Virus record (IMG/VR): IMGVR_UViG_3300028925_005942
Coordinates: 1-63,437 of that record
Strand: one strand, 5' to 3'
From: a virus
Length of the DNA: 63,437 nucleotides
Position numbers and translations under genes: made by a program. The notes under the pieces were generated by a model. That model was not told the DNA's origin, ran no database searches, and saw nothing but the letters and a program-made list of their open reading frames with translations. How positions within the stretch are numbered: the stretch's first letter is position 1; the number at the start of each line of letters is the position of its first letter. Positions 49 to 60,943 of the stretch are shown one piece after another.

Positions 49-103
49 AATTTCTTTTTTATTTGTTAATTGTATTGGGGAGGCGACCAAACCCCCCCTC
101 TAC

Positions 104-174: not shown

Positions 175-180
175 TTATTG

Positions 181-1179: not shown

Positions 1180-1183
1180 ACTG

Positions 1184-1191
1184 CAAATATA
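1184..1191 (-). promoter_or_regulatory. Bacteroidetes-type -7 box, leftward
   Basis: TATATTTG on the minus strand matches the TAnnTTTG -7 element of the Bacteroidetes primary sigma factor. It lies immediately before the ATG at 1179, in the 48-base gap after the primase-helicase gene, so it would start a separate transcript for the nuclease-resolvase group. Confidence 0.6.
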
Positions 1192-1227
1192 TGTTTTTTT
1201 GTTAATATAATTATTAAATGTTAATAA

Positions 1228-3689: not shown

Positions 3690-3691
3690 CT

Positions 3692-3958: not shown

Positions 3959-3968
3959 TATGCTTACT

Positions 3969-4289
3969 CTAATATTGGTTTTCAGCTTCCCCCGTTTTCC
4001 TAATTTTACTATACATCATTTTAACTTCTCTTTTTCCAAATCCTGTGATGTGATATAAAGCAGTAATACCGTTACCACCCCCTCTCATCATCTCTATCAG
4101 TCTTTTGTCCTTCAGAGCCTTCATACCCTGCTGGATAGTATTATGGCCTAAGGGGATGTCTCTTTTTACTTCTCCCTTAGAGAATGTCTCTGAGTGGTAT
4201 GCATACAATAATATATGCACTACCGAGTATGAGACATCAATTCTATCTGATGTTTCTTTTTGGAACTTTCTAAAATATTTTAAATTCAT
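3969..4289 (-). CDS. winged-helix DNA-binding protein
   Basis: 106 residues with a MarR/replication-type winged-helix pattern: SYSVVHILLYAYHSETFSKGEVKRDI, a recognition helix GHNTIQQGMKALKDKRLIE, and a wing MRGGGNGITALYHIT. It starts inside the end of the DnaA-domain gene (4-base overlap). It could be a repressor of the early block or a replication accessory factor; the sequence does not decide. Confidence 0.6.
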   Translation of the reverse strand: MNLKYFRKFQKETSDRIDVSYSVVHILLYAYHSETFSKGEVKRDIPLGHNTIQQGMKALKDKRLIEMMRGGGNGITALYHITGFGKREVKMMYSKIRKTGEAENQY

Positions 4290-4864
4290 GACTCAATATA
4301 AATTCTCTCAGCATCTGTACCTATACAAATTAATCCTTCATATTCATATAAAACATCATTTACTGAATTCCATCCTTCACCATTTTGCTTAATATCTCCC
4401 TTAAGGTAAAGTCTATTGCCTTTAAGTTCAACTCCATCATGTTTCCATAAGATGTTATTAGCACCTTTATAAGATAAAGGAATGACTGTACCTTTAGTTT
4501 TATGTAGGAAGAAGTGAAGGGTTACATAGGTTTTATTTTCAACTCCTATCAAGTCATTCAGTTCTTTGATGATAGTATTAGCATCAGTAGAATAGTCTAA
4601 GATATCATTCACCTTGTTAATAGCGTGAATTACCGTAGCATGAGTTGCAAATCCTCCCATCTCTCTATACTGCTTAGAGATTAATGTTGATGAACCATTA
4701 TATTCCCCATAATAATGAGCATACCAAAATAAGTGATGTCTAGCATCAATTACAGCCCTTACTCTTGTCTTAGAAAATATCTGCTCTAATGTAACATTAA
4801 AGTACTCAGACATATATACCGATAACTGTTGCATCGATACATCTTTTGTTATTGTTTTTTTCAT
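4286..4864 (-). CDS. DnaA domain IV-like DNA-binding protein
   Basis: 192 residues. Residues about 30-85 (SKTRVRAVIDARHHLFWYAHYYGEY..., then SKQYREMGGFATHATVIHAINKV) follow the DnaA C-terminal domain: a basic helix, a helix-turn-helix, and a THATVIHA signature replacing the usual DHTTVLHA. No AAA+ ATPase part is present, so it can bind DnaA-box-like DNA but not melt it alone. The C-terminal 80 residues are beta-rich and unknown. TTATCAA repeats in the non-coding region at 15.7-16.0 kb are possible targets (inference). Confidence 0.72.
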   Translation of the reverse strand: MKKTITKDVSMQQLSVYMSEYFNVTLEQIFSKTRVRAVIDARHHLFWYAHYYGEYNGSSTLISKQYREMGGFATHATVIHAINKVNDILDYSTDANTIIKELNDLIGVENKTYVTLHFFLHKTKGTVIPLSYKGANNILWKHDGVELKGNRLYLKGDIKQNGEGWNSVNDVLYEYEGLICIGTDAERIYIES

Positions 4865-5637
4865 TATAATATTCCTTTAAAATAATACTCATCTATGTTA
4901 CTACTTTTATCTATAAAGAATTCCTTATATCTATTTAATAGTGCGTTATTTTTTAATCTTCCTGCTCCAACGAAATCCTCACTTGCTTGGTAGATAGCTA
5001 ATCGATATGGAGATGCTTTCTCTATAACAACAAACCAAAAGTCAGTTGCTCCAAAACCATCCAAATACCACGCTGCTTGCCTGTCATACCCATACTTCAT
5101 TGAAGACCTTCTAAAGGCATCTAAAGAGCAATCCTGAGTAGTTTTGATGTCAATAAGAATCTTATCTCCATTGTCATCTATAACAATCATATCAGCCTTA
5201 CCCTTACACTTAACACTTCCATTATCCCAAATCCTAACTGATTCTTTATGAGATTTTTCTAGGAATTTACTTGCTATATCATTGCTATAAATAACATCAG
5301 ACATTTGATTGATAGCATTCCATTCAGACACAGAGATGATAGTTTTTCCCTCATTCTCTAATACGAATTCATCCCAGACCTTACCTCTTCTAGTCTTACC
5401 ATCGTATATTGCTATGTCTGAGTCTACCTTTCCAGGCTCTAGTATTGTTGTATGGAATGCCTTACCAAATGTAAGAGCTGGAGAAGACTCTCCCACTCCC
5501 TCAAAATACTCTCTTAGATGTTGAGGAGACTTTCCTAATTTCCCTAACATACTGTTCGTTAGATATTCTCTATCTGCATAGTAAATATCGTCATCAAGAA
5601 ACTTAATCTCTTGATTTAAAATATCCTCCTCACTCAT
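4864..5637 (-). CDS. RecE/exonuclease VIII-like nuclease (DUF3799)
   Basis: 257 residues. SPALTFGKAFHTTILEP at 52-68 (H62) and GKADMIV...ILIDIKTTQ at 146-168 (D149, D163, K165) are the catalytic blocks of the lambda/RecE-type PD-(D/E)XK exonucleases, followed by a YGYDRQAAWY helix. By family knowledge it resects double-stranded ends 5'-3' to leave 3' tails. It is directly upstream of an ERF annealing gene, making a two-part recombination module. Start ATG 5637 overlaps nothing upstream and the stop abuts the 4864 gene start. Confidence 0.85.
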   Translation of the reverse strand: MSEEDILNQEIKFLDDDIYYADREYLTNSMLGKLGKSPQHLREYFEGVGESSPALTFGKAFHTTILEPGKVDSDIAIYDGKTRRGKVWDEFVLENEGKTIISVSEWNAINQMSDVIYSNDIASKFLEKSHKESVRIWDNGSVKCKGKADMIVIDDNGDKILIDIKTTQDCSLDAFRRSSMKYGYDRQAAWYLDGFGATDFWFVVIEKASPYRLAIYQASEDFVGAGRLKNNALLNRYKEFFIDKSSNIDEYYFKGIL

Positions 5638-6234
5638 CTATAAAGGAGGTAGTGTCGCAAGATTAATAGCAGCGCTAAGTTGTTTATGTTGGATTTTAGT
5701 CATTGTGTAGTCGTTCATTCTCTCACTAACTACCCCATCATTACCAGCCTTGATAGAAGTCATCATTAAACCCATAATAGCTTCAGTCATCTTCTTTTTA
5801 GTTGCCTTAGCTGGTTTAGTAACTTCTTTAGGATTAGATGTAGCATCTGCATCCTTTGTATCATCAATCAAAAACATATTTCCGAGAGTGTATTTCTTTG
5901 AATAACTGCTTGATGAACCAAAAGATTGTGCTATATCCATACCCTTACGGTCAGGGTCTATTCCTGCTGATGAAGTAGATGTAATAACCTCTCCTGTCTC
6001 ATCTATCAATGAAGCTTTTGTAGCTACAAATAAATATCCTCCCAACTCATTTGTTTCTTCTGAGAAAAGTAATATTAGTTTATGCTCCTTTAGGTGAGGC
6101 TTAAGAGCCTCAAGGATATCTTCAGAGCTCCTGTACTTATAACCACCAAAGGAATTCATCTGTCCTTTATGAACCTTTAAGTTTGTTTGTATCATGTTTA
6201 ATTTTTCGTGCAATGTCTTAGTTACTTTTGTCAT
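5638..6234 (-). CDS. ERF-family ssDNA annealing protein
   Basis: 198 residues. The N-terminal 130 residues carry ERF hallmarks: KGQMNSFGGYKYRSSEDILEAL, ALKPHLKEHKLILLFSEE, then GMDIAQSFGSSSSYSKKYTLGNMFLIDDTKDAD. It anneals complementary single strands exposed by the neighbouring exonuclease. The C-terminal part (lysine-rich KPAKATKKK, then helical) is the usual variable tail. Stop and start of the exonuclease gene are adjacent (5637/5638), so expression is coupled. Confidence 0.88.
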   Translation of the reverse strand: MTKVTKTLHEKLNMIQTNLKVHKGQMNSFGGYKYRSSEDILEALKPHLKEHKLILLFSEETNELGGYLFVATKASLIDETGEVITSTSSAGIDPDRKGMDIAQSFGSSSSYSKKYTLGNMFLIDDTKDADATSNPKEVTKPAKATKKKMTEAIMGLMMTSIKAGNDGVVSERMNDYTMTKIQHKQLSAAINLATLPPL

Positions 6235-6388
6235 TTCTTAATCTTTTAATTGTTAATTTTAATTGTTTTACTTCTTCTTCTAGAGCCAGTCTTATCGACC
6301 TCTCCTCATCATAATTCATCATCCACACCCTTGTCGACATGGCTAATTGTTCTGACTGCTGAATGAACAGCTCCTTCATTTTTCCCAT
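6218..6388 (-). CDS. small coiled-coil protein
   Basis: 56 residues, charged and helical (LALEEEVKQLKLTIKRLRND at the C-terminus). The frame is open 15 codons further upstream, but that extension runs through the -7 promoter box at 6412-6419, so the ATG at 6388 (MGKMKE) is chosen. It overlaps the ERF gene start by 17 bases and would lead the ERF-exonuclease transcript. Function unknown. Confidence 0.6.
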   Translation of the reverse strand: MGKMKELFIQQSEQLAMSTRVWMMNYDEERSIRLALEEEVKQLKLTIKRLRNDKSN

Positions 6389-6411
6389 ATTATTTTGTTT
6401 TAAATTGTATG

Positions 6412-6419
6412 CAAATATA
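6412..6419 (-). promoter_or_regulatory. Bacteroidetes-type -7 box, leftward
   Basis: TATATTTG on the minus strand, 24 bases before the ATG at 6388. It would fire the ERF / exonuclease / DnaA-like / initiator group as one early transcript. Confidence 0.65.
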
Positions 6420-6459
6420 CGGCATCTTTTCATATATATTACAATTGTTAATAACTTTT

Positions 6460-6837
6460 TTAATTGACAGAATCAGTATCCATATCACTTATCATAGCTC
6501 TAGTAAGGGGGTCTAGTCCATCCTCATATAGGTCATCCAAGCCCTTATATTTTTTGAACTCATCCCCCGCAGCTTTAAGGATATTAACAGCTAACTCCAT
6601 GTCATTTGAGCATTCAAAGAGAATGTTTGATAGTGTTTGAAGTCCAGAGATATGGTGCATTACAACATCTTCTCCGTTTAAGTCAAACTCCTCAATCTTT
6701 GCATCTGAATTACTCATTCTAATCATCATGCTATCCAAATGTTTTCTTACTTCGGGAGCAGAGTCCTCAATGAATTTAACCAATCCTTCTTGTAGTTTGG
6801 TTACTTTCTCTATTGTTACCTTTATATCTTTTTTCAT
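6460..6837 (-). CDS. hypothetical 125-residue acidic helical protein
   Basis: Helical, acidic (ends GLDPLTRAMISDMDTDSVN), no recognised domain. Its start is preceded by the three-copy TGCATATGCATATGCA control element with GATAA repeats, so it may be regulated differently from the other early genes. Confidence 0.6.
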   Translation of the reverse strand: MKKDIKVTIEKVTKLQEGLVKFIEDSAPEVRKHLDSMMIRMSNSDAKIEEFDLNGEDVVMHHISGLQTLSNILFECSNDMELAVNILKAAGDEFKKYKGLDDLYEDGLDPLTRAMISDMDTDSVN

Positions 6838-6902
6838 ATATTATGTTATATTATCTTATCTTATCTCATCTTATAGCATTGCGTTTGCATATGCATATGC
6901 AT
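6838..6902 (-). promoter_or_regulatory. TGCATATGCATATGCA control element, copy 1
   Basis: Read leftward: TGCATATGCATATGCA, a few bases, TGCTATAAGAT, then repeated GATAAGATAA up to the ATG at 6837. The same order occurs at 54784-54840 before another gene and (first part) at 16520-16554. TGCTATAAG resembles an extended -10 box with TTGCAT upstream. It could be a promoter class distinct from the TAnnTTTG sites, or an operator. Confidence 0.55.
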
Positions 6903-6905
6903 ACT

Positions 6906-6983
6906 TTAACCCTGTAAAAGTAGAGATATCATCACTATAACTGCCCATACTATGGTTTTAACTATATATTCCTTAGTCCTCAT
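6906..6983 (-). CDS. 25-residue single-span membrane peptide
   Basis: ATG at 6983, stop TAA 6906-6908. A short charged start (MRTKEYIVK) leads into a hydrophobic span (TIVWAVIVMISLLL). It fills the gap between two leftward genes. It is a plausible membrane micropeptide, but small size makes it uncertain. Confidence 0.4.
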   Translation of the reverse strand: MRTKEYIVKTIVWAVIVMISLLLQG

Positions 6984-6993
6984 ACTCACTATG

Positions 6994-7230
6994 CTATAGT
7001 GTGATTAGGTGGACTTCATCTGATTCTATCTGTTGGATTAGTATATAATCTGTCTCATTTCTATATCGTTCTAGGAGCAATTCTATTACCTCATGACTCT
7101 CTAAATCTGGAGCATTCTCCCATTCAAAGATACTCATTTCAAATAATTTACTGAACTCATTATGCAATTCAAATGCATCTAAAAATTCTCTTAATGTAAC
7201 ATACTCTTCTTTTCTTTTTGCTAATACCAT
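6994..7230 (-). CDS. hypothetical 78-residue acidic protein
   Basis: Acidic, helical N-terminus, ends in a strand-like EVHLITL. No known domain seen. First of a long series of small leftward genes spaced by 10-25 bases with A-rich leaders. Confidence 0.6.
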   Translation of the reverse strand: MVLAKRKEEYVTLREFLDAFELHNEFSKLFEMSIFEWENAPDLESHEVIELLLERYRNETDYILIQQIESDEVHLITL

Positions 7231-7249
7231 TTTTGTTTTCTTTTTTTTA

Positions 7250-7588
7250 TTAATAATTATCTAATTGTTCTGATGCTTCTTGTAAATCCTCATACTCCTT
7301 TACTAATGCAAGAAACCTATCTAATAAGTTCTTCCCATTCCCTTTTATTCCAAAGTATTTTTTAACATCAGTAACATACCAATTCCTATGAGGTTTCATA
7401 TTGTTGTTTACATACAACGATATATCTCTTTTTGATACCATTAAATTGTATACTGCCCTGTTCATAGGGTTTCCATTCATCTGAAAGACATTGTCTTGGT
7501 CAAATAATTCATCAGTAAATTGAGTTTTCTGCGCTAACATAGGTAACCCTAGATTAGTCATGATAGTGTATTGTTCTTTTTTATTCAT
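7250..7588 (-). CDS. hypothetical 112-residue protein
   Basis: No recognised domain. The middle (NPMNRAVYNLMVSKRDISLY) and the charged helical tail could form a small helical fold. Leader is A-rich (AATAAAATG). Part of the leftward small-gene series; an ACTATCA motif lies at 7561-7567. Confidence 0.6.
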   Translation of the reverse strand: MNKKEQYTIMTNLGLPMLAQKTQFTDELFDQDNVFQMNGNPMNRAVYNLMVSKRDISLYVNNNMKPHRNWYVTDVKKYFGIKGNGKNLLDRFLALVKEYEDLQEASEQLDNY

Positions 7589-7605
7589 TTTATTTATTTT
7601 TATTA

Positions 7606-7851
7606 TTAATCAAGTAGTACCATATATTCATCAGGATAATTCTTCCTAAACCAAGCTATACCTTTATTCATTAGAGGGTACATACTCATGGCTTCAGCCC
7701 CCATTATTAAATCATACATTGACGCTGAATGAGAGTCGCAATAAATCTCTCCGTAACCCATTCTATTCTGTATAATTTCTCCTTCAGGGTAAATTCTTCC
7801 ATCAAACCATTTAGGTAGTGGAGCGTTCTTGTCTTCTTTATTCATTGACAT
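7606..7851 (-). CDS. hypothetical 81-residue phage protein
   Basis: Starts MSMNKEDKNAPLPKWFDG, then SMYDLIMGA, and ends with IAWFRKNYPDEYMVLLD. This pattern (KWFDG...YD.I.GA...WFR..NP..YM.LLD) is one I associate with a small family common in marine phages, without known function. It overlaps the upstream 66-residue gene by 14 bases. Confidence 0.65.
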   Translation of the reverse strand: MSMNKEDKNAPLPKWFDGRIYPEGEIIQNRMGYGEIYCDSHSASMYDLIMGAEAMSMYPLMNKGIAWFRKNYPDEYMVLLD

Positions 7852-8038
7852 TATTTATTTCATTTTTAATTTGTTCTTCATCCATTGAAAGTATTTCTTC
7901 CAATAATTCCCCTATACATTGTATAGTTTCTTCTTTTTGACGCTTAACGGCTGTCTCTAAAGCACCATCTGTATAAGGGTCTATACTTACATCATAATCT
8001 TTCATCCATGATGCCATTATTTCTAATCTTTCTTTCAT
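7838..8038 (-). CDS. hypothetical 66-residue helical protein
   Basis: Helical and acidic. The ATG overlaps the stop of the upstream gene (ATGA). No domain recognised. The coupling to both neighbours supports it as a real gene. Confidence 0.6.
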   Translation of the reverse strand: MKERLEIMASWMKDYDVSIDPYTDGALETAVKRQKEETIQCIGELLEEILSMDEEQIKNEINNVNE

Positions 8039-8448
8039 TTAATTATTTTTATTATTCTTCCTTCAATTATTATATTATCATAATGATTACCATCTACATC
8101 ATTATTATTCTCATCAACCCAATGAGGAAGTTTTCTTGGATTGTATGATAGTGTTTCTTCAGCCCAGTAGTGTTTCTGCGTTAAAGTATTCAGCTCATCA
8201 CCCATTAAATCTGCATCAGTATTATACGCCATAATAGACTCACACTCTATCCAAGAACAAACCGTTTTATTTTCCCCATCTTTTATTTTAAGGGCTGTTT
8301 TTTTATTATTCTTGAGGACTGCATTATCTACATCTAAAAGCACATCTTCAGGAGTAAAATAATATAACTCATCAGTATCAATACCTCTGACCTGCCATTT
8401 CATATAATTTTCTCCCTTACCTAGATGATATCTTAATTTATATTTCAT
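8035..8448 (-). CDS. hypothetical 137-residue protein
   Basis: Contains LPHWVDENNNDVDGNHYDN and a basic C-terminus; no family recognised. The frame is open to 8469, but ATG 8448 (MKYKLRYH) has the better A-rich leader and reduces overlap with the upstream gene to 11 bases. ATG 8403 (MKWQVRG) after a GGGAG tract is another possibility. Confidence 0.55.
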   Translation of the reverse strand: MKYKLRYHLGKGENYMKWQVRGIDTDELYYFTPEDVLLDVDNAVLKNNKKTALKIKDGENKTVCSWIECESIMAYNTDADLMGDELNTLTQKHYWAEETLSYNPRKLPHWVDENNNDVDGNHYDNIIIEGRIIKIIK

Positions 8449-8611
8449 GTTTATTATTTTGGTTATCATATAAGAATTCTTGTTCCATTGACATAGTCAA
8501 ACCTATTGACCTTATCTGTTGGCACTTCTCACTTTTTGTTAACTCTTTGTTTCTTTCTACATCTACAAGTTCCTCTATGTAACATGCGATGGCTTCGTTT
8601 AATTCTTCCAT
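8438..8611 (-). CDS. hypothetical 57-residue helical protein
   Basis: ATG 8611 to TAA 8438. Acidic/helical start (MEELNEAIACYIEELVDVER), no domain recognised. It fills an otherwise empty 140-base gap in the leftward series and its 3' end overlaps the next gene by 11 bases. Confidence 0.55.
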   Translation of the reverse strand: MEELNEAIACYIEELVDVERNKELTKSEKCQQIRSIGLTMSMEQEFLYDNQNNKHEI

Positions 8612-8613
8612 AT

Positions 8614-8916
8614 CTATTTATATTTTACATTTAATTGTTTATACATCTGAAAATCCATTCCCGTCTCTTCAAGAATATGTTGCATGTTCTCTCCATCCAC
8701 TTCCCTTTCTTTAATCATTTCTATTATATCCTTAACACCACGAATTCTTAATTCTTTAGTCCTAAGTTCTAATTCCTCTATGTGTTTCATAAAGGCTTTT
8801 ACATAACATGTATCATCTGTATTCATTTCTTCTAAGCGATAGTCATTAAAGTAATTAAACCCATCATCGACTCTATTTATTAGACTTTTATATGTTTTAT
8901 TTTCTGGCTCATTCAT
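8614..8916 (-). CDS. hypothetical 100-residue helical protein
   Basis: Charged, mostly helical (AFMKHIEELELRTKELRIRG); no domain recognised. It starts 4 bases inside the end of the 8913 gene (ATGA overlap), so it is probably translationally coupled. Confidence 0.6.
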   Translation of the reverse strand: MNEPENKTYKSLINRVDDGFNYFNDYRLEEMNTDDTCYVKAFMKHIEELELRTKELRIRGVKDIIEMIKEREVDGENMQHILEETGMDFQMYKQLNVKYK

Positions 8917-9149
8917 AATTTTTTTGGGTATATATTTGTTAGGTTATTTAATAAGTTTTCATATTCATCATACATTTCTACATAATATTCGTGTGCTTCT
9001 TCTTGCATAACCATCTCATTTTGTTTTCCTACTTCATTTGATGGAGCGTAAGTTTCTTGCCCGTAATTCATCTGAGTTATCTGTGTAGCTAATTCATCCA
9101 CTAATTCCATGAATAAATTATGGTCTATATATATTTTATTTTTTTCCAT
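8913..9149 (-). CDS. hypothetical 78-residue acidic protein
   Basis: Acidic, rich in glutamate and tyrosine (EEAHEYYVEMYDEYENLL). No domain recognised. Its start codon lies within an ACTATCATGG sequence, one of the strand-biased ACTATCA copies. Confidence 0.6.
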   Translation of the reverse strand: MEKNKIYIDHNLFMELVDELATQITQMNYGQETYAPSNEVGKQNEMVMQEEAHEYYVEMYDEYENLLNNLTNIYPKKL

Positions 9150-9160
9150 GATAGTATTTG

Positions 9161-9502
9161 TTAATCTATTAAGTTAATTTCACTAATATGCTCTACATAA
9201 TCCCAGTACACACCTATCTCAGAATGCAACTCTCCAGCTTCTCCTAGCCCTATACAAAAAGCATTGTCATTATCTTCTGACACCTTATGTATATACTCCA
9301 TAATATCCTTACACCAGTCATCTGATTCATACCACTTTGTATATTCAAAAGTATAAAACTTCATCCCATCGTTTTCAATATGTATCTTTAGATAGTTGGT
9401 TGACTTGATAGGGTGGAATTCGTGCTTAATCAATATTTCATCAAACTTATCCGATAATTTACCATACTCTACTCCTATAATTACTTTACTTCTATATCCC
9501 AT
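9161..9502 (-). CDS. hypothetical 113-residue protein (MGYRSKV family)
   Basis: Starts MGYRSKVIIGVEYG, a start shared by small alpha/beta phage proteins I have seen before; ends with an acidic GLGEAGELHSEIG segment. No enzymatic motif. A fold with beta-strands and one or two helices is likely. Role unknown. Confidence 0.6.
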   Translation of the reverse strand: MGYRSKVIIGVEYGKLSDKFDEILIKHEFHPIKSTNYLKIHIENDGMKFYTFEYTKWYESDDWCKDIMEYIHKVSEDNDNAFCIGLGEAGELHSEIGVYWDYVEHISEINLID

Positions 9503-9526
9503 TTTATTTAGTTTTAGTTAATTTAT

Positions 9527-9778
9527 TTATAAGTGTCCTCCATATCCATCAGGGCATTGGTATCTCCACTCGCTATCTCCTTTATTATCCATCCCCTCAT
9601 AATCTCCCAACCCACTTCCAAACAGATATTCTGACTTAGCTACTTTATTTGATATTTCCTCAATCCATAGGTCTTCGTTATCTAATATCCAGTCATCTAC
9701 TTGAACATCTTTAGGTACTTCAATTTCTATCTCTGTAAACTTATGATATACACTTCGTTGTTGAATTTTTACTTTCAT
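9527..9778 (-). CDS. hypothetical 83-residue protein
   Basis: Beta-rich start (MKVKIQQRSVYHKFTEIEIEVP), glycine- and tryptophan-containing C-terminus. No domain recognised. Separated from the next gene by a single base. Confidence 0.6.
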   Translation of the reverse strand: MKVKIQQRSVYHKFTEIEIEVPKDVQVDDWILDNEDLWIEEISNKVAKSEYLFGSGLGDYEGMDNKGDSEWRYQCPDGYGGHL

Positions 9779-9779
9779 C

Positions 9780-10052
9780 TTATTTATTTTTATTGTAATT
9801 ATTAATAAATCCCACTACTGAGTTGTAAGCATGTGCTATGTCTTGATTGCATATACTCTCGTAGATATTTTTGATAGCAGTATTAGATACTTCTTCACTT
9901 TGCTCTGCCTCTCCGACCAAACACTTTTCTATCACTGGCATTAGCCAATCCCAAGATTTGTGGTAATCTCCCCAAGGTAAACTACCATCTATTTTAGGAT
10001 GTTCAAAATCACCAACATACATAAATTCTGCTATAATTTTATTTTCTTTCAT
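9780..10052 (-). CDS. SWDWLMPV-family phage protein, copy 1
   Basis: 90 residues. IIAEFM near the start, then YHKSWDWLMPVIEKC, then a helical tail with VVGFIN. This is a small family common in Bacteroidetes phages with unknown role. A diverged second copy lies at 12022-12276 with the same IAEFM...SWDWLMPVV layout, so the window has a paralogous pair. Confidence 0.7.
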   Translation of the reverse strand: MKENKIIAEFMYVGDFEHPKIDGSLPWGDYHKSWDWLMPVIEKCLVGEAEQSEEVSNTAIKNIYESICNQDIAHAYNSVVGFINNYNKNK

Positions 10053-10057
10053 CTTAT

Positions 10058-10408
10058 TTAATTATTAGGGTTGTTAATTGTAGCTATACACTCTAGAACT
10101 GATTGACCTATACTAGCATTTACTTCATAGTCATAATAGCGTACTAGATGGCTCGTGATAGTGTTTCTCATCTCTTCAGTATATCCTACTAACGAATCAA
10201 ATTCATTAGGGTACACTTCATCTAGATAATTATGCATACATTCATACTCTGAGTCTAGCTCGGTATTGAACTTAGACTTAATAAACCCAGCATAAGCAGG
10301 TTTAATGATGTCAAATTGTAGGTCATACTCCATCTTTGAAAAGTCTTTATTGAAACAAACCAATAGTTGGCTGAATAAATATTCACTGTAATTTAATGTT
10401 TTTTCCAT
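10058..10408 (-). CDS. hypothetical 116-residue protein
   Basis: Helical, acidic (LNYSEYLFSQLLVCFNKDF...), no domain recognised. In the small-gene series with 4-5 base spacing to its neighbours. Confidence 0.6.
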   Translation of the reverse strand: MEKTLNYSEYLFSQLLVCFNKDFSKMEYDLQFDIIKPAYAGFIKSKFNTELDSEYECMHNYLDEVYPNEFDSLVGYTEEMRNTITSHLVRYYDYEVNASIGQSVLECIATINNPNN

Positions 10409-10412
10409 TTTT

Positions 10413-10652
10413 TTAAATAGTATTAGTTAGTATCTCGTATTCTGATATTTGCACGGACTTTATTGAGCCATCTCTCTTAAAATACCTAGTAGGTACATTA
10501 ATTTTGTTTGACTTAACATCATATCCATATTTCTTTAGTTCGCATATCCTTGATGCTAGTCTATAACACCCAAATAAATTGATAGCTTCCTTTTGTGTGA
10601 GTTTATTACCTGCTTGTAGGTAATCAATTATATCACTTGTCTGTGTTCTCAT
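10413..10652 (-). CDS. small helix-turn-helix protein
   Basis: 79 residues. IIDYLQAGNKLTQKEAINLFGCYRLASRICELKKYGYDV is the pattern of the short phage winged-helix family that begins with a LT..EA...FGC.RL..RI..LR.RG core. The remaining residues form a wing-like YFKRDGS segment. Probably binds DNA as a regulator; no target is evident. Confidence 0.7.
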   Translation of the reverse strand: MRTQTSDIIDYLQAGNKLTQKEAINLFGCYRLASRICELKKYGYDVKSNKINVPTRYFKRDGSIKSVQISEYEILTNTI

Positions 10653-10653
10653 T

Positions 10654-10992
10654 TTAAATAGTATTTATTATCGTATTAGTTATCAACACTTCTTGTTGAT
10701 TAGCTACTTCTTTTATGCATTCCTTTAATTTACTAAAATACACATCTTCATTATTGTCGGTTATTATTTGTAGTACATAAGTTTTTATAACTGTAAAATC
10801 CTCATCATAAGTTTTTTTCCATCCACCTTGACCCTTCAGTAAAGTATAGCCTGTATGGTGTATTCTTTGTAATTCACCATTTTGATTGGCATACATACCA
10901 TGACTAATTGCATCAGTTATTTTATTGAGAACCTCTGAGCATTCTAATTCATTGTCTATTGAAAAATAGATTGTATATAATTGCTTTTTCAT
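10654..10992 (-). CDS. hypothetical 112-residue protein
   Basis: Alternating strands and helices (QLYTIYFSIDNELECSEVL...), no domain recognised. One base from the downstream HTH gene and one base from the upstream gene, so part of a tight transcription unit. Confidence 0.6.
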   Translation of the reverse strand: MKKQLYTIYFSIDNELECSEVLNKITDAISHGMYANQNGELQRIHHTGYTLLKGQGGWKKTYDEDFTVIKTYVLQIITDNNEDVYFSKLKECIKEVANQQEVLITNTIINTI

Positions 10993-10993
10993 A

Positions 10994-11599
10994 TTATTGT
11001 CTATAATTAGTTTTAATTTTTCTGAATGCCTCCCAAGTACTTGATTGTAGTAGTAGTGGAGAGATGTCTATTTTTTTAGCCGTATATTTGAAACAATCCA
11101 CAAAGAAATTGTACTGAACCTTTGTCATTCCTTGATAATCGTCATTATTAGTCCATTTACCAAGACTAACTGATAAAGCGTGTCTATCAATAGTGATATT
11201 TTCGGTATTTGTAGGGTAAAGTATGTTCATATAGAAAGAACTTATCTTAGAGCCATTCAATATACCTAGTATATCAGTATCAGAACCTGATGATGATAGT
11301 ATTCCCTTTGCTTTATCCTCAAATTGTTTCATATGGTGGGACTGTCCTACTGAAATCATTTTTTCAGCACATATCATATTTTGACTCCAAGTTTTTACTG
11401 GAGAAAGTGCAGCGATTACCCCTACACATTTATTTACACTGATATTATACCTACCTGCTAGAGATTTAGCAAAGTTATTAGCATCTCCATACCAATCCCT
11501 TCTATCCTCTTGAGAGGAATTAAAGTAAAAACCAAGAATATTATTCTTAATTTTAGTTCTACTAAGCATTTCGCCCTTGTATATTTGTTTTGTTTTCAT
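10994..11599 (-). CDS. conserved phage protein, DNA-glycosylase-like helical fold (DUF7178-type, tentative)
   Basis: 201 residues. RRDWYGDANNFAKSLAGRYNISVNKCVGVIAALSPVKTWSQN, then GILNGSKISSFYMNILYP, then ITIDRHALSVSLG, match a recurring phage family with helix-hairpin-helix-like segments. Enzyme activity has not been shown to my knowledge, and no catalytic residue can be assigned. The coding region contains one GTAGGAC palindrome copy (11336-11350) and a GATGATAGT copy (11292). Confidence 0.6.
   Translation of the reverse strand: MKTKQIYKGEMLSRTKIKNNILGFYFNSSQEDRRDWYGDANNFAKSLAGRYNISVNKCVGVIAALSPVKTWSQNMICAEKMISVGQSHHMKQFEDKAKGILSSSGSDTDILGILNGSKISSFYMNILYPTNTENITIDRHALSVSLGKWTNNDDYQGMTKVQYNFFVDCFKYTAKKIDISPLLLQSSTWEAFRKIKTNYRQ
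11336..11350. repeat. GTAGGAC palindrome copy (one mismatch, in a gene)
   Basis: GTGGGACTGTCCTAC inside the 10994-11599 gene. It matches the 15-base form of the family except for one base. Confidence 0.55.
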
Positions 11600-11601
11600 A
11601 A

Positions 11602-11679
11602 TTAGTAACCTATATATATTAGTAAAATAAATGCTAGTATTACTAGCAAGAGTTCTTGTATGTTAGATAATTTATACAT
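11602..11679 (-). CDS. 25-residue membrane micropeptide, paralogue B
   Basis: ATG 11679, TAA 11602. Sequence plan: polar start with KLSNIQ, then one hydrophobic span ending LIYIGY. It shares the KLS.NQ.L.LVI.AFI layout with the peptide encoded just upstream (11683-11769), so the two look like a tandem duplication. Confidence 0.5.
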   Translation of the reverse strand: MYKLSNIQELLLVILAFILLIYIGY

Positions 11680-11682
11680 AGT

Positions 11683-11769
11683 TTAATGTATAAAAGGGTT
11701 CATCATAATCATAATAATAAATGCTATTATTACTAGTGCTAGTTGCTGATTGTCTGATAATTTACTCAT
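11683..11769 (-). CDS. 28-residue membrane micropeptide, paralogue A
   Basis: ATG 11769, TAA 11683. MSKLSDNQQLALVIIAFIIM followed by a short tail; one membrane span. It begins inside the end of the zinc-ribbon gene upstream and is followed after 3 bases by its paralogue. Similarity between the two in adjacent frames argues that both are real. Confidence 0.5.
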   Translation of the reverse strand: MSKLSDNQQLALVIIAFIIMIMMNPFIH

Positions 11770-12019
11770 CATATTTTCTTTTAGAATCGGCTTTATCCTC
11801 CTCGTTATTTTCTAGTTTTGTAGCATGATAGTCATTCGCATCTACTTTATCTTCAAACCACTCATCACATTCATCACAAATATATCCTTCAGGTTCAGCA
11901 TGGTCTAAGCAATCTAAATTCATACATATTCCTGAGTCTGATATTTCTGCATCACAGCAATAGCTCGTGGTAGCTGTTTCATAATCTTCCCCACAGCAAG
12001 GGCTTACTAAATTTCCCAT
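11762..12019 (-). CDS. small zinc-ribbon protein
   Basis: 85 residues with paired cysteines: CCGEDY near the start, YCCDAEIS, CMNLDC, then CDECDEWF. Several CxxC/CC pairs suggest two zinc sites. The tail is acidic and basic by turns (NEEDKADSKRKYDE). Role unknown. Confidence 0.65.
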   Translation of the reverse strand: MGNLVSPCCGEDYETATTSYCCDAEISDSGICMNLDCLDHAEPEGYICDECDEWFEDKVDANDYHATKLENNEEDKADSKRKYDE

Positions 12020-12021
12020 AA

Positions 12022-12276
12022 TTATTTATTGTTAGTTTGTTTTATAAATTCTACTACTACTTTGTATAACTCGTCTATGTTACAAGTAAGTAGAGCATCG
12101 TTCAACCTCATATAATCTATAGTGTCTGTGTTTCCAAATCGTTCAAAACACTCTATTACCACAGGCATCAGCCAATCCCAAGAGGTATTGTAAGGAAACT
12201 TATCATTTGTATAGTAGTCGTTTCCATAACCTATACTTGTACCCATAAATTCTGCTATTAGTTTGTTATTTTCCAT
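12022..12276 (-). CDS. SWDWLMPV-family phage protein, copy 2
   Basis: 84 residues with LIAEFMG, NTSWDWLMPVVIECF and a helical tail, paralogous to the 9780-10052 gene but diverged outside the core. Function unknown. Confidence 0.7.
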   Translation of the reverse strand: MENNKLIAEFMGTSIGYGNDYYTNDKFPYNTSWDWLMPVVIECFERFGNTDTIDYMRLNDALLTCNIDELYKVVVEFIKQTNNK

Positions 12277-12278
12277 AA

Positions 12279-12464
12279 TTATTCTTTATTAATATGTATT
12301 TCGTTAATCACTTCTTGGATATCTTCCACATCTTCTAGGTCGTTTATAAACTGAAGTAAGTCTACATTGCCTTTTAAACTGTAATTATCTAGAAATCTAT
12401 TGTAGTTATGCATAGATAAGTCTAGTATCATATCTATTAACTCTTGTGTTAATTTTTCTTCCAT
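12279..12464 (-). CDS. hypothetical 61-residue acidic helical protein
   Basis: Acidic, helical (LQFINDLEDVEDIQEVINEI), no domain recognised. The ATG at 12464 is 15 bases from a perfect GTAGGAC palindrome (12479-12494), which sits in the leader of its mRNA. Confidence 0.55.
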   Translation of the reverse strand: MEEKLTQELIDMILDLSMHNYNRFLDNYSLKGNVDLLQFINDLEDVEDIQEVINEIHINKE

Positions 12465-12471
12465 AATTTAT

Positions 12472-12639
12472 TTATTTGGTAGGACTTGTCCTACGATGAT
12501 AGTTTTCAAATTCTATTTTTAAGGCATTTTCTTCATTATCTGATAGCCTTAGTAATCCTTGTGCGTATAGATTGTATAATTCAGAAATACTAGGGGTGTA
12601 CCCAAATTTTTCTTCATACCTTTTTATTATTGTTTCCAT
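12472..12639 (-). CDS. hypothetical 55-residue protein ending in palindrome-encoded tail
   Basis: ATG 12639, TAA 12472. METIIKRYEEKFGYTPSISE start, then helical. Its last residues (HRRTSPTK) are encoded by the palindrome at 12479-12494, suggesting the palindrome was inserted or retained at the gene end. A similar TSPTK is encoded by the copy in the DUF4373 gene. Confidence 0.5.
   Translation of the reverse strand: METIIKRYEEKFGYTPSISELYNLYAQGLLRLSDNEENALKIEFENYHRRTSPTK
12479..12494. repeat. GTAGGAC palindrome copy
   Basis: GTAGGACTTGTCCTAC, perfect 16-base form, between the end of one small gene and 15 bases before the ATG of the next. A GATGATAGT motif follows immediately (12495-12503). 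No U-run follows on either strand. Confidence 0.75.
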
Positions 12640-12652
12640 AATTTATTTTTTG

Positions 12653-12667
12653 GTAGGACTGTCCTAC
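12653..12667. repeat. GTAGGAC palindrome copy
   Basis: GTAGGACTGTCCTAC, 15-base form with a single central base, 14 bases before the ATG at 12639 and 4 bases past the stop of the upstream gene. Confidence 0.75.
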
Positions 12668-12670
12668 TGG

Positions 12671-12970
12671 TTAATAAGCTGAGATAGGTCTTGATTGATG
12701 CTCTTCATAATCAATTCCCATTTTATCAGCAAAATGTTTCTTTAGTTCCTCTCCGATACCATCTAAAATGCTATTGTCATCATCACTCACTTCATCTCTT
12801 TTGGTTTCTCTTCTCAATGTATCATTAACTGCAATACTTCCTAGCATACCACCTCCTAAGTAGTTTTGGTAGGCAGACATTTTCTCTCCCTCAAATCCAA
12901 ATGGAGTTAAGTCAATTTCAATACCACCACCTCTTGATGATAGTTTTTCCCTAATAATTTTAAATTCCAT
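12671..12970 (-). CDS. hypothetical 99-residue protein
   Basis: Glycine-rich middle (QNYLGGGMLGSIAVND), acidic helical tail. The run FGFEGEKMSAYQNYLGGGMLG resembles short phage proteins without known role. Its stop is next to the palindrome at 12653-12667. Confidence 0.6.
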   Translation of the reverse strand: MEFKIIREKLSSRGGGIEIDLTPFGFEGEKMSAYQNYLGGGMLGSIAVNDTLRRETKRDEVSDDDNSILDGIGEELKKHFADKMGIDYEEHQSRPISAY

Positions 12971-12972
12971 GA

Positions 12973-13239
12973 TTATTGTTTTAAATTAATAATATTCTCT
13001 GTATTTGCGTCATGTATTTCCCAATCAAATAACATAATCATATCTGATAGAGTTAATGACTTAAATTCTTCTTCCTCAAGTCCTCCGTTATCTATTTCGT
13101 GAAAGCTATATAAATCACCTTCAATTTCTTTTAAATCGTCATAGATAATATGCCCTTCAGTACCTCCTTTATAATCGTGTAGTTGATTATCCCATAATTT
13201 ATATTTCTTTTTCATAGTTTTATTATCTTGATATTTCAA
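12973..13239 (-). CDS. hypothetical 88-residue acidic protein
   Basis: Acidic with mixed strands (HIIYDDLKEIEGDLYSFHEI). No domain recognised. Start overlaps the upstream gene by 17 bases. Confidence 0.55.
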   Translation of the reverse strand: MKYQDNKTMKKKYKLWDNQLHDYKGGTEGHIIYDDLKEIEGDLYSFHEIDNGGLEEEEFKSLTLSDMIMLFDWEIHDANTENIINLKQ

Positions 13240-13585
13240 TTATAGCTTCAGGGTATTCCTCACAAGCCTTTAGGTACGTCTCTACAAATTCTAAGAAATG
13301 TTCGTACATTCCCCAACCATTAGGGGAGTTGAACTGCTTAAAGTGTTCAGGTCTTAGTTTTAAATCCGTTAGCCCTAGTTTAAGTGGAGCTATTATATCT
13401 TTAGCCTTATCCCACTCTGACTCATCAGGTCTCCATAATGCCTTATATAAATCGCATTCATCAGCCATCTTAGTTAGATTATGAGTAGTCCCTCCATCAT
13501 AAATGCACTCAGATTCTTCTTTCCAAGTTTCTCCTTTATTGTAGCTTGTCCATTTCTGAACCCTTAATTCTATATATAAACCCAT
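13223..13585 (-). CDS. hypothetical 120-residue protein
   Basis: Contains ESECIYDGGTTHNLTKMADE, LYKALWRPDE and LRPEHFKQFNSPNGWGMYEHFLEFV, a pattern seen in small phage proteins of unknown function. No catalytic motif identified. Confidence 0.6.
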   Translation of the reverse strand: MGLYIELRVQKWTSYNKGETWKEESECIYDGGTTHNLTKMADECDLYKALWRPDESEWDKAKDIIAPLKLGLTDLKLRPEHFKQFNSPNGWGMYEHFLEFVETYLKACEEYPEAIIEISR

Positions 13586-13595
13586 AATTATTATT

Positions 13596-13925
13596 TTAAA
13601 TTAAATTCTCCCAAATCATTTCCCCTTCTTTTTCAGTCTCAATCCCATCTTTATATATTTCATCTGATAGGCTATACTTAGTGCTTAGGAAAAAATCTAC
13701 TATCCTTTGCGTTTCTGTATTAGATATACAACCATAAGAAAAAATAGTTTTATCAGCATAACTGATGTACCATATCATTTGTATTGGAGGAAATAATTTA
13801 CCGCTTCCTTTTTGTCCGTGTAATTTAGTTCGGAACGATAATTTAAACCCCTCTTCACTGATAAGGGTATTATCCTGGTAATCTATCCAATTACAATTTT
13901 CTAACTTTACTATAAACTCATTCAT
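13596..13925 (-). CDS. hypothetical 109-residue protein
   Basis: Mixed alpha/beta, no domain recognised. Starts 31 bases from the palindrome at 13956-13971, which lies in its leader. Confidence 0.55.
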   Translation of the reverse strand: MNEFIVKLENCNWIDYQDNTLISEEGFKLSFRTKLHGQKGSGKLFPPIQMIWYISYADKTIFSYGCISNTETQRIVDFFLSTKYSLSDEIYKDGIETEKEGEMIWENLI

Positions 13926-13955
13926 ATCTTAAAAATTTTAATTAATACTATTTTG

Positions 13956-13971
13956 GTAGGACTTGTCCTAC
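13956..13971. repeat. GTAGGAC palindrome copy
   Basis: GTAGGACTTGTCCTAC, perfect, in the 48-base gap between the lipoprotein gene (stop 13974) and the 13596-13925 gene. Confidence 0.75.
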
Positions 13972-13973
13972 GA

Positions 13974-14141
13974 CTATTGACCACCAAACCATCCACCTTG
14001 ACAATGTTTCTGCATTGGTCTGCCTGTTCCTACATTGTACTGGGTACTAGCGCATGATGATAGTAATAGGATTATAATTATTAATGTCAGGTAGGCTGTC
14101 CCTACAACTGATGCTGGGTTATTTTCTGCTATTTTTTTCAT
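13974..14141 (-). CDS. small lipoprotein
   Basis: 55 residues from ATG 14141 (MKKIAENNPA...), chosen because it overlaps the upstream stop as TAATG. The frame is open 15 codons further. A hydrophobic span (TLIIIILLLSSCAS) ends in a lipobox-like LSSC, followed by a short glycine-rich extracytoplasmic tail ending GGWFGGQ. Probably lipid-anchored; role unknown, possibly entry exclusion or lysis. Confidence 0.6.
   Translation of the reverse strand: MKKIAENNPASVVGTAYLTLIIIILLLSSCASTQYNVGTGRPMQKHCQGGWFGGQ
14091..14105. repeat. diverged GTAGG palindrome
   Basis: GTAGGCTGTCCCTAC inside the lipoprotein gene, same length and ends as the 15-base family but with a rearranged centre. Possibly a decayed copy. 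Confidence 0.35.
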
Positions 14142-14437
14142 TATCTTTGTATTTTTAGTCCGTGATTTTCCATATACTCTATCCAACTCATCAACTCATC
14201 AGTATTTTCAAATGTATTTAAACATTCATTGATACTCATATCTGTTGGAAATGGATTTTTATTCTCGTGTCTAAAGTATTGGTATGTATATTCGCCTACC
14301 TTTTCTGCTAAATAATAAGGGTACTGAACAAAACTTCTCACAATACTTGCTCTAATTTCTTTTCCATGTCCAAAGGCGATACTTCTTTTGTCGCACCACT
14401 TTTGTTTTCCTTGTGTACTTCTAATAATTGTAGTCAT
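14141..14437 (-). CDS. hypothetical 98-residue protein
   Basis: Basic start (STQGKQKWCDKRSIAFGHG), then a VRSFVQYPYYLAEKVGEYTY segment and an acidic helical C-terminus. No domain recognised. Confidence 0.55.
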   Translation of the reverse strand: MTTIIRSTQGKQKWCDKRSIAFGHGKEIRASIVRSFVQYPYYLAEKVGEYTYQYFRHENKNPFPTDMSINECLNTFENTDELMSWIEYMENHGLKIQR

Positions 14438-14446
14438 AATTCTTTT

Positions 14447-14581
14447 TTAATTTATTAGTATTTTAATTGTTATGATACTGAATGACATTGCTGTTACCAT
14501 CCACCATAGGAATGGTCGTTTACATTTAGTTGCGTCATTACTCCAAAAGTTTACATAATCTTTCATTAATTCTTTTTTCAT
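14447..14581 (-). CDS. 44-residue single-span membrane protein
   Basis: ATG 14581, TAA 14447. Polar start (MKKELMKDYVNFWSNDATKC) followed by a hydrophobic C-terminal span (LWWMVTAMSFSIITIKILI). Its leader (GTAGGAC palindrome, AATAATTTAAAGATAA, ATGAAAAAA) is nearly the same as that of the 14617-14988 gene. Confidence 0.5.
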   Translation of the reverse strand: MKKELMKDYVNFWSNDATKCKRPFLWWMVTAMSFSIITIKILIN

Positions 14582-14605
14582 CTTATTATCTTTAAATTAT
14601 TTCTC

Positions 14606-14620
14606 GTAGGACTGTCCTAC
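14606..14620. repeat. GTAGGAC palindrome copy
   Basis: GTAGGACTGTCCTAC, perfect, overlapping the stop of the 14617-14988 gene and 25 bases before the ATG at 14581. Confidence 0.75.
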
Positions 14621-14988
14621 TCGTTTCTTAAAAATTCTTTATCTAATTCCATCTGCATTTTAAAATTAGTATTCTTATTCATTCGACTACTCATAGGGCA
14701 ACTAGAGGTCTCTTGTGTATAGTACTCGGCTCTAGTATTGATTTCATGCACAAGTCCTTCAGGTGTCTTAATAACAAGATATAGCACCCCTCCAATTCTA
14801 TAATGATGTAAATTTCCCTTGCCTCGATTTTTTAGTTTCTTTCCGTTCCATTCCTCGACTATCCAACCCTTATTTTGAGGGATATACGGTGATGATAGTA
14901 TTTTAGTCTTCATTACTTTAGGAGGGCTTATTAATCCTTCAAGGATAAGTAACCTACGGAGTGATTTTTTAAATTCAGATTTTTTCAT
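14617..14988 (-). CDS. hypothetical 123-residue basic protein
   Basis: Basic (MKKSEFKKSLRRLLILEGLI), with WIVEEWNGKKLKNRGKGNLHHY and a beta-rich YLVIKTPEGLVHEINT segment. No family assigned. Contains GATGATAGT at 14891. Confidence 0.55.
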   Translation of the reverse strand: MKKSEFKKSLRRLLILEGLISPPKVMKTKILSSPYIPQNKGWIVEEWNGKKLKNRGKGNLHHYRIGGVLYLVIKTPEGLVHEINTRAEYYTQETSSCPMSSRMNKNTNFKMQMELDKEFLRNE

Positions 14989-15011
14989 TGCCTTATCTTT
15001 AAATTATTTTG

Positions 15012-15026
15012 GTAGGACTGTCCTAC
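15012..15026. repeat. GTAGGAC palindrome copy
   Basis: GTAGGACTGTCCTAC, perfect, 24 bases before the ATG at 14988 and just downstream of the tRNA-like element. Confidence 0.75.
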
Positions 15027-15034
15027 TAAATTTG

Positions 15035-15097
15035 TAGCCATAAAAGGAATCGAACCTTTAGCACCTATTATTTCAGCACCTTACCAAGTTAACGGCT
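15035..15097 (-). tRNA. degenerate tRNA-like element (Phe GAA-like loop)
   Basis: Read leftward, a canonical T arm (AAAGG, TTCGATT, CCTTT) is followed by an acceptor 3' strand that pairs with AGCCGT at the 5' end, and a D-like ACTTGGTAAGG. A loop CTGAAAT would carry anticodon GAA (Phe). But the anticodon stem does not form: GGTGC occurs as a direct repeat on both sides instead of an inverted one, and the total is only about 63 nt. It may be a decayed tRNA or a tRNA mimic. Confidence 0.4.
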
Positions 15098-15150
15098 AGT
15101 TATAAGAGGAATTTCAACCCCTTAGATTATTTGGTTTATCTAGTACTACT
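15098..15150 (-). other. second tRNA-like hairpin set
   Basis: Directly upstream of the first. AGTAGTA pairs with TATAACT with one mismatch and one wobble. A T-arm-like AGGGG, TTGAAATT, CCTCT follows a TAGAT/ATCTA hairpin. No D arm. It would be an armless tRNA-like fold, or simply non-coding sequence; weak. Confidence 0.25.
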
Positions 15151-15605
15151 TATGAAGCCGATACCTCTAGCATGATACTTTGTGCTAGTACTTTACCTAA
15201 TTGTTGTACTTCTTTTTGTGTCAAATCACAATTTTCGCTAGATAGTAACTCAACAATTTTGTCGAATGTACTTTTTTGACTACTTTTTGAAACATAATCG
15301 ACTAGAGAATATACCTTTGTCGTTCTATCGAATGCTAATTTTAAAGGGTTCAAATTCTCATCTTTAGTTGATACCCTCTTAATTGTCTTATTTAGCGTGT
15401 TAATTCGTTGGTCTTTACCACCTTGTTTGCTAGTAGTGTAGATGAAATTTGCCGTATCTACTAGTACTTTGCCATTCTCATCAGTTAAATTTGATAGGAC
15501 TTGTCCTACTAAACTAGCATTGTGCTTTGTCGCTAGTGTTAAAGTTGATACTAATTGTGCTACATTTGATTTAGGCGTAACTTTCCCATTGATTAATTTG
15601 CTCAT
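15150..15605 (-). CDS. hypothetical 151-residue helical protein
   Basis: Serine/threonine-rich, helical, no recognised domain (starts MSKLINGKVTPKSNVAQLVS). First leftward gene after the long non-coding region, with a weak -7 box (TATACTTG) 49 bases upstream. Position next to the candidate origin hints at a replication or early role, but nothing in the sequence shows one. Confidence 0.6.
   Translation of the reverse strand: MSKLINGKVTPKSNVAQLVSTLTLATKHNASLVGQVLSNLTDENGKVLVDTANFIYTTSKQGGKDQRINTLNKTIKRVSTKDENLNPLKLAFDRTTKVYSLVDYVSKSSQKSTFDKIVELLSSENCDLTQKEVQQLGKVLAQSIMLEVSAS
15494..15509. repeat. GTAGGAC palindrome copy (in a gene)
   Basis: ATAGGACTTGTCCTAC; the inner 14 bases are perfectly palindromic. 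It lies within the 15150-15605 coding region. Confidence 0.6.
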
Positions 15606-15653
15606 AATTTTTGTTTTTTTGTTTTAGTTAAATTCGCTTTGTTAATTATAATG

Positions 15654-15661
15654 CAAGTATA
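15654..15661 (-). promoter_or_regulatory. weak Bacteroidetes-type -7 box, leftward
   Basis: TATACTTG on the minus strand, one base off TAnnTTTG, before the 15150-15605 gene. It could start the transcript for the whole small-gene block. Confidence 0.45.
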
Positions 15662-15684
15662 CAGGTTTAAAATTAAGTGGTAAC

Positions 15685-16022
15685 TAACTGATAATGAGAG
15701 GGTTAAAGCTAACTGCTTGATAATCAAGTACTTATAAGTATATGATAGTGAACCACTTAGCTATTTAGTAAAGTGTAAACATCGATTTTGGAAAATATAT
15801 GGTGTCATGTTGTAACTGCTTGATACTCAATAGGTTACAGAGGTAAAAAAGGTAATGATTATTTCAATTATTGCTAACTACTTGATAACCAATGATATAT
15901 AAGGTGTTGATTATCAATGCTTTAGCTATTTGTCAGTAACTTATTGACATTCTTATTTAGAATGACTATAAATAAGCAATTACTTTGTAAAGTACTGATT
16001 ATCAGGTGGTTACAGAGGTAAA
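15685..16022. repeat. TTGATAATCAA-type iterons
   Basis: Four rightward units TAACT-(GC/AC)-TTGATA-A/C-TCA plus two palindromic reverse-reading units within 340 bases. TTATCAA in these units resembles the TTATCCA part of a DnaA box. Confidence 0.55.
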
Positions 16023-16519
16023 TTAAGTAATTAGCTAGATAAGACTAGGTATAGACTAGGTCTGTAACCCTAGTAGATGAGTTTTAAGGCGTTAACTAGT
16101 GTTTTTGATACTGATATACTGTAAAGAAGTTAGAAGGCTTTAGAAGTCCTTAAATGGATTATTTAGGGTGTGCCTAGAGTATATACTAATATATACTAGA
16201 ATTCCTAATTTTGTGCCAACATTTTATACAATAGTTTTCAACAAAAATAGAAGGGGGATTATCCCTCTCATCTTATGGTCTACCTTAAATAAAGTTTAGT
16301 CTTGTCTAAACATTAGTTTGTATAAACCGAAATCTAAAATTAGTTAAGGCTTAATTATAGATAAGGATTGCCTGAATATGGAAACAACCCCACCCCCCTA
16401 ATTAATTTCGTTTAGGTAAAAGGATTTGTATGGTGCTGTATAGTATATTATCCCACCCCTAAGTATAACTGGAATCTTTAATTAAATTCTCCACTGGTAT
16501 GTGTACTTTTTAACCAAGG

Positions 16520-58738: not shown

Positions 58739-60943
<2,205 letters not shown>

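Follow-up and report, generated by a model that had tools for sequence, protein, structure and literature searches.

The described systems that appear, by analogy, to lie closest to the element reported here are the stoperators and the SAS/ESAS sequences of mycobacteriophages. The element is a family of short palindromes, putative RNA hairpins, dispersed along the leftward early operon of the virus record IMGVR_UViG_3300028925_005942, whose whole 63,437-base stretch was analysed (the window, W) and compared with other IMG/VR records labelled G001, G002, G010, G013, G030 and G039. These hairpins are probably binding sites for a phage regulator, and not chance or mobile repeats. Stoperators of the Cluster A mycobacteriophages L5 and Bxb1 are likewise many short sites, mostly off promoters, with a single orientation and a consensus particular to each phage (PMC6550527); among the hairpins one orientation is found in 36 of 36 copies, together with three stem versions. 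Stoperators, however, are DNA sites of 13 bp, asymmetric and bound by a known immunity repressor, whereas the hairpins fit no such asymmetric site, being near-perfect palindromes that are asymmetric only at the centre and lie in one early operon. The SAS and ESAS sequences of Cluster K mycobacteriophages resemble the hairpins in their restriction to the non-structural half of the genome, single orientation, position near starts, inverted repeats and subcluster-specific consensus (PMC3203893). SAS is a 13-bp sequence with a Shine-Dalgarno core 3-7 nucleotides (nt) from the start, kept with given genes, and ESAS is a 17-bp imperfect repeat; no hairpin has the SAS form, and the hairpins instead lie 13-30 nt from an ATG (W) or inside genes (mostly, in G010 and G039) and are partly gene-tied.

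In the lambda nut site, the boxB hairpin bound by N is short, has an A-rich loop, stands in nascent early RNA near the first gene of the operon, and is phage-specific. The present hairpins are also short, with an A-rich loop, and belong to the sense strand of the early transcript, with the first site early, near gene 1; their orientation lock and predicted folding agree with a sense-strand early RNA hairpin, although the antisense strand is predicted to fold likewise. Unlike nut, they number 7-11 copies per operon where the operon is covered, have loops of 3-4 nt and show no consistent boxA, since the sole candidate partner, a motif ACTATCAT described below, lies directly upstream of only three copies. 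No homologue of lambda N was recognised. The sites of phage T4 RegB resemble the hairpins in lying on early mRNAs, mainly between genes and sometimes within them (PMC3014915). RegB sites, however, are unpaired GGAG/U at Shine-Dalgarno sequences, whereas the hairpin GGA stands in the stem and is able to pair with UCC in all hairpin rows; of the proteins scanned, none was recognised as RegB-like. Stoperators, SAS/ESAS, nut and RegB sites each share some features with the hairpins, and each differs in at least one of its defining features tested.

Hairpin copies in the window

Five perfect GTAGGAC-A(A)-GTCCTAC palindromes were found in W, against 0.00 expected from 100 shuffles, and three one-mismatch copies (3295-3310, 11336-11350 and 15494-15509) bring the family to eight. 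All eight are on the minus strand, which is the sense strand of the leftward early genes. The late (structural) arm of W contains no copy, and the early sense strand has none with two or three mismatches. An original prediction, made from the letters of W alone, had listed at least eight copies outside the structural arm, and this count was confirmed (its 3294 is our 3295); a further "rearranged" copy that it placed at 14091 (GTAGG-GACAG-CCTAC) is too diverged and was not counted. Five of the eight copies lie 5-40 nt upstream of a start codon (p=0.0003), and these are the five perfect ones, which stand 13-30 nt before an ATG, in agreement with the 13-31 bases first proposed.

The copy nearest the operon start, at 15494-15509 (mRNA GTAGGACAAGTCCTAT), has its one mismatch as an outer G-U pair and lies in frame within the first early gene; it is identical in G001 at 16 of 16 positions, compared with 63-78% identity of its 60-nt flanks. 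The perfect copy at 15012-15026 is 23 nt upstream of the ATG of 14617-14988, and that at 14606-14620 contains the stop codon of the same gene, with the next ATG 24 nt on. A third, with an AA centre, is located at 13956-13971, 30 nt upstream of the ATG of 13596-13925, while the copy at 12653-12667 lies 3 nt past a stop and 13 nt ahead of an ATG. The last perfect copy (12479-12494, AA centre) is directly preceded by ACTATCATC and lies in frame in the 3' end of the open reading frame 12472-12639, 14 nt from the next ATG. The copy at 3295-3310, with a G-U pair in its stem, falls within an 18-amino-acid linker of a Lin1244_N replication gene, and this linker is absent from the G010 homologue. The weakest of the eight, 11336-11350 within a DUF7178 gene, is possibly coincidental: its conservation in G001 is no better than that of its flanks, and it is predicted to be unfolded in context.

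As originally argued, the palindromes are not terminators, since no U-run follows the stem on the mRNA strand and no minus-strand terminator was called at any copy. Promoter-like matches were no commoner in the promoter scan than in shuffles, and an Rfam search of W gave nothing at gathering score and, for 10900-16200, nothing even at E up to 1. The CCA tail reported after the stem is real and follows six copies, but it is absent in relatives, so the idea that it mimics a tRNA acceptor was dropped; ARAGORN found no tRNA.

Carrier phages, stem versions and orientation

The W terminase matches PHROG 6681. Named relatives of W have Flavobacterium, Cellulophaga and Maribacter as hosts, with terminase identity below 40% among those listed; W is a marine Bacteroidetes-type phage. 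Further carriers were located in IMG/VR by terminase and by two stem versions. G001 (3300027810_000018) has seven copies of RTAGGAC-A(A)-GTCCTAY, G010 (3300030098_003093) has 11 copies of TCGGAC-AA-RTCCGA, G039 (3300006802_000101) has nine copies of TCGGAC-AA-GTCCGA, and the 8.8-kb contig G002 (3300023278_002077) has two copies of GTTGGA-AAA-TCCAAC. With the eight of W these make 37 copies, leaving out G030, a near-duplicate of G039 with the same copy spacing. Every copy is within one mismatch of the version of its own genome, and none is found at two mismatches. An IMG/VR scan with the W stem returned 66 matches, none of which showed a comparable set in an early operon rich in A+T; a scan with the G002 stem yielded no additional carrier, and no comparable hairpin family was present in the other relatives G015, G026, G016 and G025. 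Two of these, G015 (L188/L329-L330) and G026 (L189/L331-L332), carry a dispersed motif GCTATACAC in 7-9 copies on one strand only. Literature searches found no account of this hairpin family.

Alignment of the 37 copies gave the core T-N-GGA-(loop 3-4)-TCC-N'-A, in which the N-N' pair is A-T, C-G or T-A depending on the phage (over distinct rows, C-G 9, A-U 7, G-U 1, U-A 1 and unpaired 2). The stem covariation score was 0.195 compared with 0.051 in shuffles, and all slid versions scored lower; the rows of one genome are not independent, and the N-N' variation represents about two stem changes between phages. Relatives had been proposed at the outset as the place to look for loss of pairing or for confinement to conserved codons, and what they show favours function: the arms change together at one stem position, and copies also occur elsewhere than in conserved codons. 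Two G010 copies (CAAA) and G002 (AAA) lack the inner C-G pair.

Of the 37 copies, 36 are asymmetric at the centre, and every one of these has its A-rich centre (A, AA or AAA) on the mRNA strand; the remaining copy, from G039, has an orientation-neutral AT centre. The chance of this under free orientation is 1.5e-11 (2^-36), the true figure being less extreme because of copies inherited at shared positions. In contrast, the CGGAC-WW-GTCCG palindromes found in leaders of the Vibrio-type records G032 and G040, relatives of SHOU24, have a mixture of AA, TT and AT centres, which shows that this palindrome shape does not in itself entail an orientation lock. These CTTTCGGACWWGTCCGAAA-like palindromes (G032, L319-L320; G040, L324-L325) stand in many leaders directly 5' of AGGAG and the start codon, and look like a dyad operator family.

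Taking the operon start as just upstream of the first early start codon, the first copy lies 131 nt from it in W, 122 in G001, 64 in G010 and 83 in G039; in G002 the first copy is in the 5' leader of gene 1, and G010 has one more copy upstream of the operon start used. Copy density is highest near the operon start and falls with distance downstream. Of W, G001, G010 and G039, only G001 has significantly regular spacing of its hairpins (p=0.005). Copies of W and G001 are often found between a stop and the next start, while the majority in G010 and G039 are inside genes. The initial description of the sites as leaders of small genes therefore suits the five perfect W copies and not the gene-internal copies at 3295, 11336 and 15494 or most of those in G010 and G039; even the perfect copy at 12479 overlaps the 3' end of a reading frame. 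W and G001 have in common two leader sites (15012 and 14606) and two gene-internal ones, and the W site before 13596-13925 is absent before the G001 homologue. The association of sites with particular genes is only partial.

Gene-internal copies are written with rare codons, TCG making up 4-5% and TCC 6-7% of Ser codons in these A+T-rich genomes, and for a given amino-acid sequence such codons have a probability of about 1e-4 per copy. The copy in the G039 DUF7178 gene overlies LSDKSDRHDWY, and the G010 gene, of equal length, has LTDKTDRYDWY in an ungapped alignment; since the copy sits on homologous codons with no indel, it was not acquired by insertion. Judged from these comparisons, there is nucleotide-level selection within codons.

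A candidate partner protein

The first gene of the leftward operon, gene 1 (15150-15605, minus strand; family A1), encodes 151 amino acids with no database match, and is the leading candidate for the trans-acting factor that binds the hairpin. Homologues are found in G001, G010, G039 and G002, and an incomplete one lies at the end of G030; in G039 the homologue stands just after that of gene 2. A gene-1 profile scan of IMG/VR recovered three records only, all hairpin carriers, and an hmmsearch over all fetched loci found gene 1 in the six carrier records only, with no match falling in the range from E=1e-15 to E=10. The first gene of G013 is another one, and the approximately 1.2 kb of its early region that was covered contains no hairpin. 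This link between gene 1 and the hairpin, as seen in sequence, is a co-occurrence among related phages and not proof. The family has a conserved NTL-x-(K/R)-(T/S)-x-K block; it gave no trustworthy match in Pfam, PHROGs or PDB, and its profile matched nothing in 84,980 bacterial and archaeal genomes, nor in phages. Gene 2 (14617-14988, minus strand; family A2/A4), a context gene that is second in the operon, also occurs in G001, G010, G013 and G039. Structure models of genes 1 and 2 were too poor and were not used.

Other elements of the early region

The ACTATCAT(CA) motif is a second sense-locked sequence, with 12 copies on the minus strand of W 1-15640 (e.g. at 14899, 14064, 12944, 12503 and 11300) where 0.43 are expected, none on the opposite strand of the early operon, and almost none in the late arm; its reading frames vary. 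It is enriched in G001 and G010 too and present in G039 and G013. Its copies stand about 0.4-1.1 kb apart, and their spacing is more even than random both in G001 (p=0.003) and over the first 9 kb of W (p=0.001).

Between early genes 1 and 2 is a tRNA-like sequence (W 15030-15105, minus strand; L071 5675-5735) with a 7-bp acceptor-like stem and a GGTTCGATTCC T-arm; it was uncalled by ARAGORN and Rfam, and its acceptor stem, compared by eye, changes compensatorily between W and G001. Hammerhead-ribozyme-like sequences lie on the minus strand between early genes of G039 and G013 (L315 7944-8042 and L089 715-782), with RF03152 RAGATH-1 as best match; the scores, 25 and 29 bits, do not reach the gathering score of 56. 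The 5' hairpin of the G039 sequence is a copy of the hairpin family. Upstream of the early operon, W 15690-15960 contains repeated TTGATTATCAAGCAGTTA-like units, similar to units in relatives, that may serve as upstream regulatory or as origin repeats. The perfect 16-bp palindrome TGCATATGCATATGCA occurs in three identical copies, far apart in intergenic positions (6886, 16522 and 54790). W also encodes a DnaA C-terminal-type DNA-binding protein (4286-4864), a GroEL (59064-60662) and a PhoH-like ATPase (61199-61855).

Possible function of the hairpins

Observed directly are the family itself, its orientation lock and early-only location, the compensatory change of its arms, codon-level selection and co-occurrence with gene 1. 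From these we tentatively favour, at a little less than an even chance, a repeated early-mRNA hairpin recognised in trans by a phage factor. Each palindrome would then specify, in the early (leftward) transcript, a small RNA hairpin with a stem of 5-7 bp, U-N-GGA/UCC-N'-A, and an A-rich loop of 3-4 nt (CAG, CAAG, CAUG, CAAA or AAA). A trans-acting factor, phage-encoded or co-opted, would read this hairpin by its exact sequence, and the product of gene 1 may be that factor. Since the first site lies close to the operon start, and the operon opens with a small conserved gene, the job rated most likely is to load, in the manner of nut/boxB, an antitermination protein, or one that modifies RNA polymerase, onto the early RNA as it is made; antitermination as the outcome, taken on its own, is doubtful. 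That the site acts in RNA rather than DNA, and what binds it, we infer; recognition in RNA is favoured by the orientation lock, the loops of 3 or 4 nt, the two versions that lack the inner C-G pair and the G-U pairs on the sense strand.

Several points weigh against this proposal. The hairpin is predicted to form (mean pairing >0.8) in 30 of 37 mRNA contexts, and more readily within its natural flanks than within random ones, but the antisense strand also folds better than random in context (0.72 vs 0.55), and in-context folding was therefore set aside as non-discriminating between RNA and DNA. Stem covariation is equally to be expected of a DNA dyad, and reflects only about two events between phages. 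Stoperators show that orientation-locked, phage-specific sites can act on DNA, and the presence of several copies per operon is unlike a classical nut site; nor does any boxA-like partner consistently adjoin the copies. The co-occurrence with gene 1 concerns six related records, and gene 1 itself has no recognisable domain and a poor fold model (mean pLDDT 41).

A first alternative is that a phage repressor, bound to the near-palindrome at many places in the early operon, blocks elongating RNA polymerase as at stoperators. Those sites are also scattered, mainly in one orientation with respect to transcription, mostly off promoters and with phage-specific motifs that track the repressor (PMC6550527), and half-site symmetry with a genome-wide consensus would suit a DNA-binding protein. 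Stoperators are asymmetric and bound by a monomeric repressor (PMC9283540), whereas a symmetric dyad gives the orientation lock no reason; hairpin spacing differs by 1 bp within one genome, the copies are confined to the early operon, and no match to Phage_integrase or HTH_3, the two families looked for as marks of a temperate lifestyle or immunity repressor, was found in six records, several of which are fragments. We consider stoperator-like sites unlikely, if a serious contender. Cutting of the polycistronic early mRNA at or beside the hairpin by a phage or host endoribonuclease, which would segment or inactivate it as T4 RegB does at GGAG, appears rather unlikely. The sense-strand lock, early-only location and frequent stop-to-start position in W and G001 would agree with such processing, RegB cuts early mRNAs between and sometimes within genes (PMC3014915), and a hammerhead-like ribozyme, another RNA-cleaving element, adjoins a G039 copy. 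However, no nuclease candidate common to the carriers was found, RegB requires an unpaired GGA where the GGA here is paired, and cuts at the gene-internal copies of G010 and G039 would destroy those messages.

Ordinary dyad operators, bound by a dimeric transcription factor at internal early promoters, would account for perfect dyads whose two arms change symmetrically between phages, but the lock in 36 of 36 copies disfavours the plain symmetric operator first suggested, and copies deep in genes and a spacing that varies between 3 and 4 nt make it improbable. More remote still is a mobile or selfish palindromic mini-element, REP-like, also among the first suggestions, despite the many near-identical copies per genome, the 3295 copy in a linker missing from the G010 homologue, and some G010 copies in non-homologous tails. 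It is already contradicted by the single orientation throughout and by the copy on homologous codons of the equal-length DUF7178 gene of G039; no flanking duplications were seen, and all copies of a phage have one stem version, which may differ from that of its relatives. Together, the rare codons, the homologous-codon copy, the versions kept within one mismatch and the orientation lock argue against chance, a mobile element, tRNA mimicry and an orientation-indifferent operator.

To return to the early-mRNA hairpin, a protein of the gene-1 family that binds a sense-strand hairpin dispersed 7-11 times in an early operon, with rare codons kept and with hairpin and protein diverging together, would be a new RNA regulatory system, which we regard as possible, though we would sooner doubt than assert it. 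To our knowledge, little is known of early-gene control in Bacteroidetes-type phages. The hairpin family makes recognition directly testable, since it provides a defined site, natural variants whose arms compensate, and a candidate partner protein. Should the site act in RNA, the hairpins would form a dispersed code superimposed on coding sequence, in contrast to lambdoid phages with their single nut sites.

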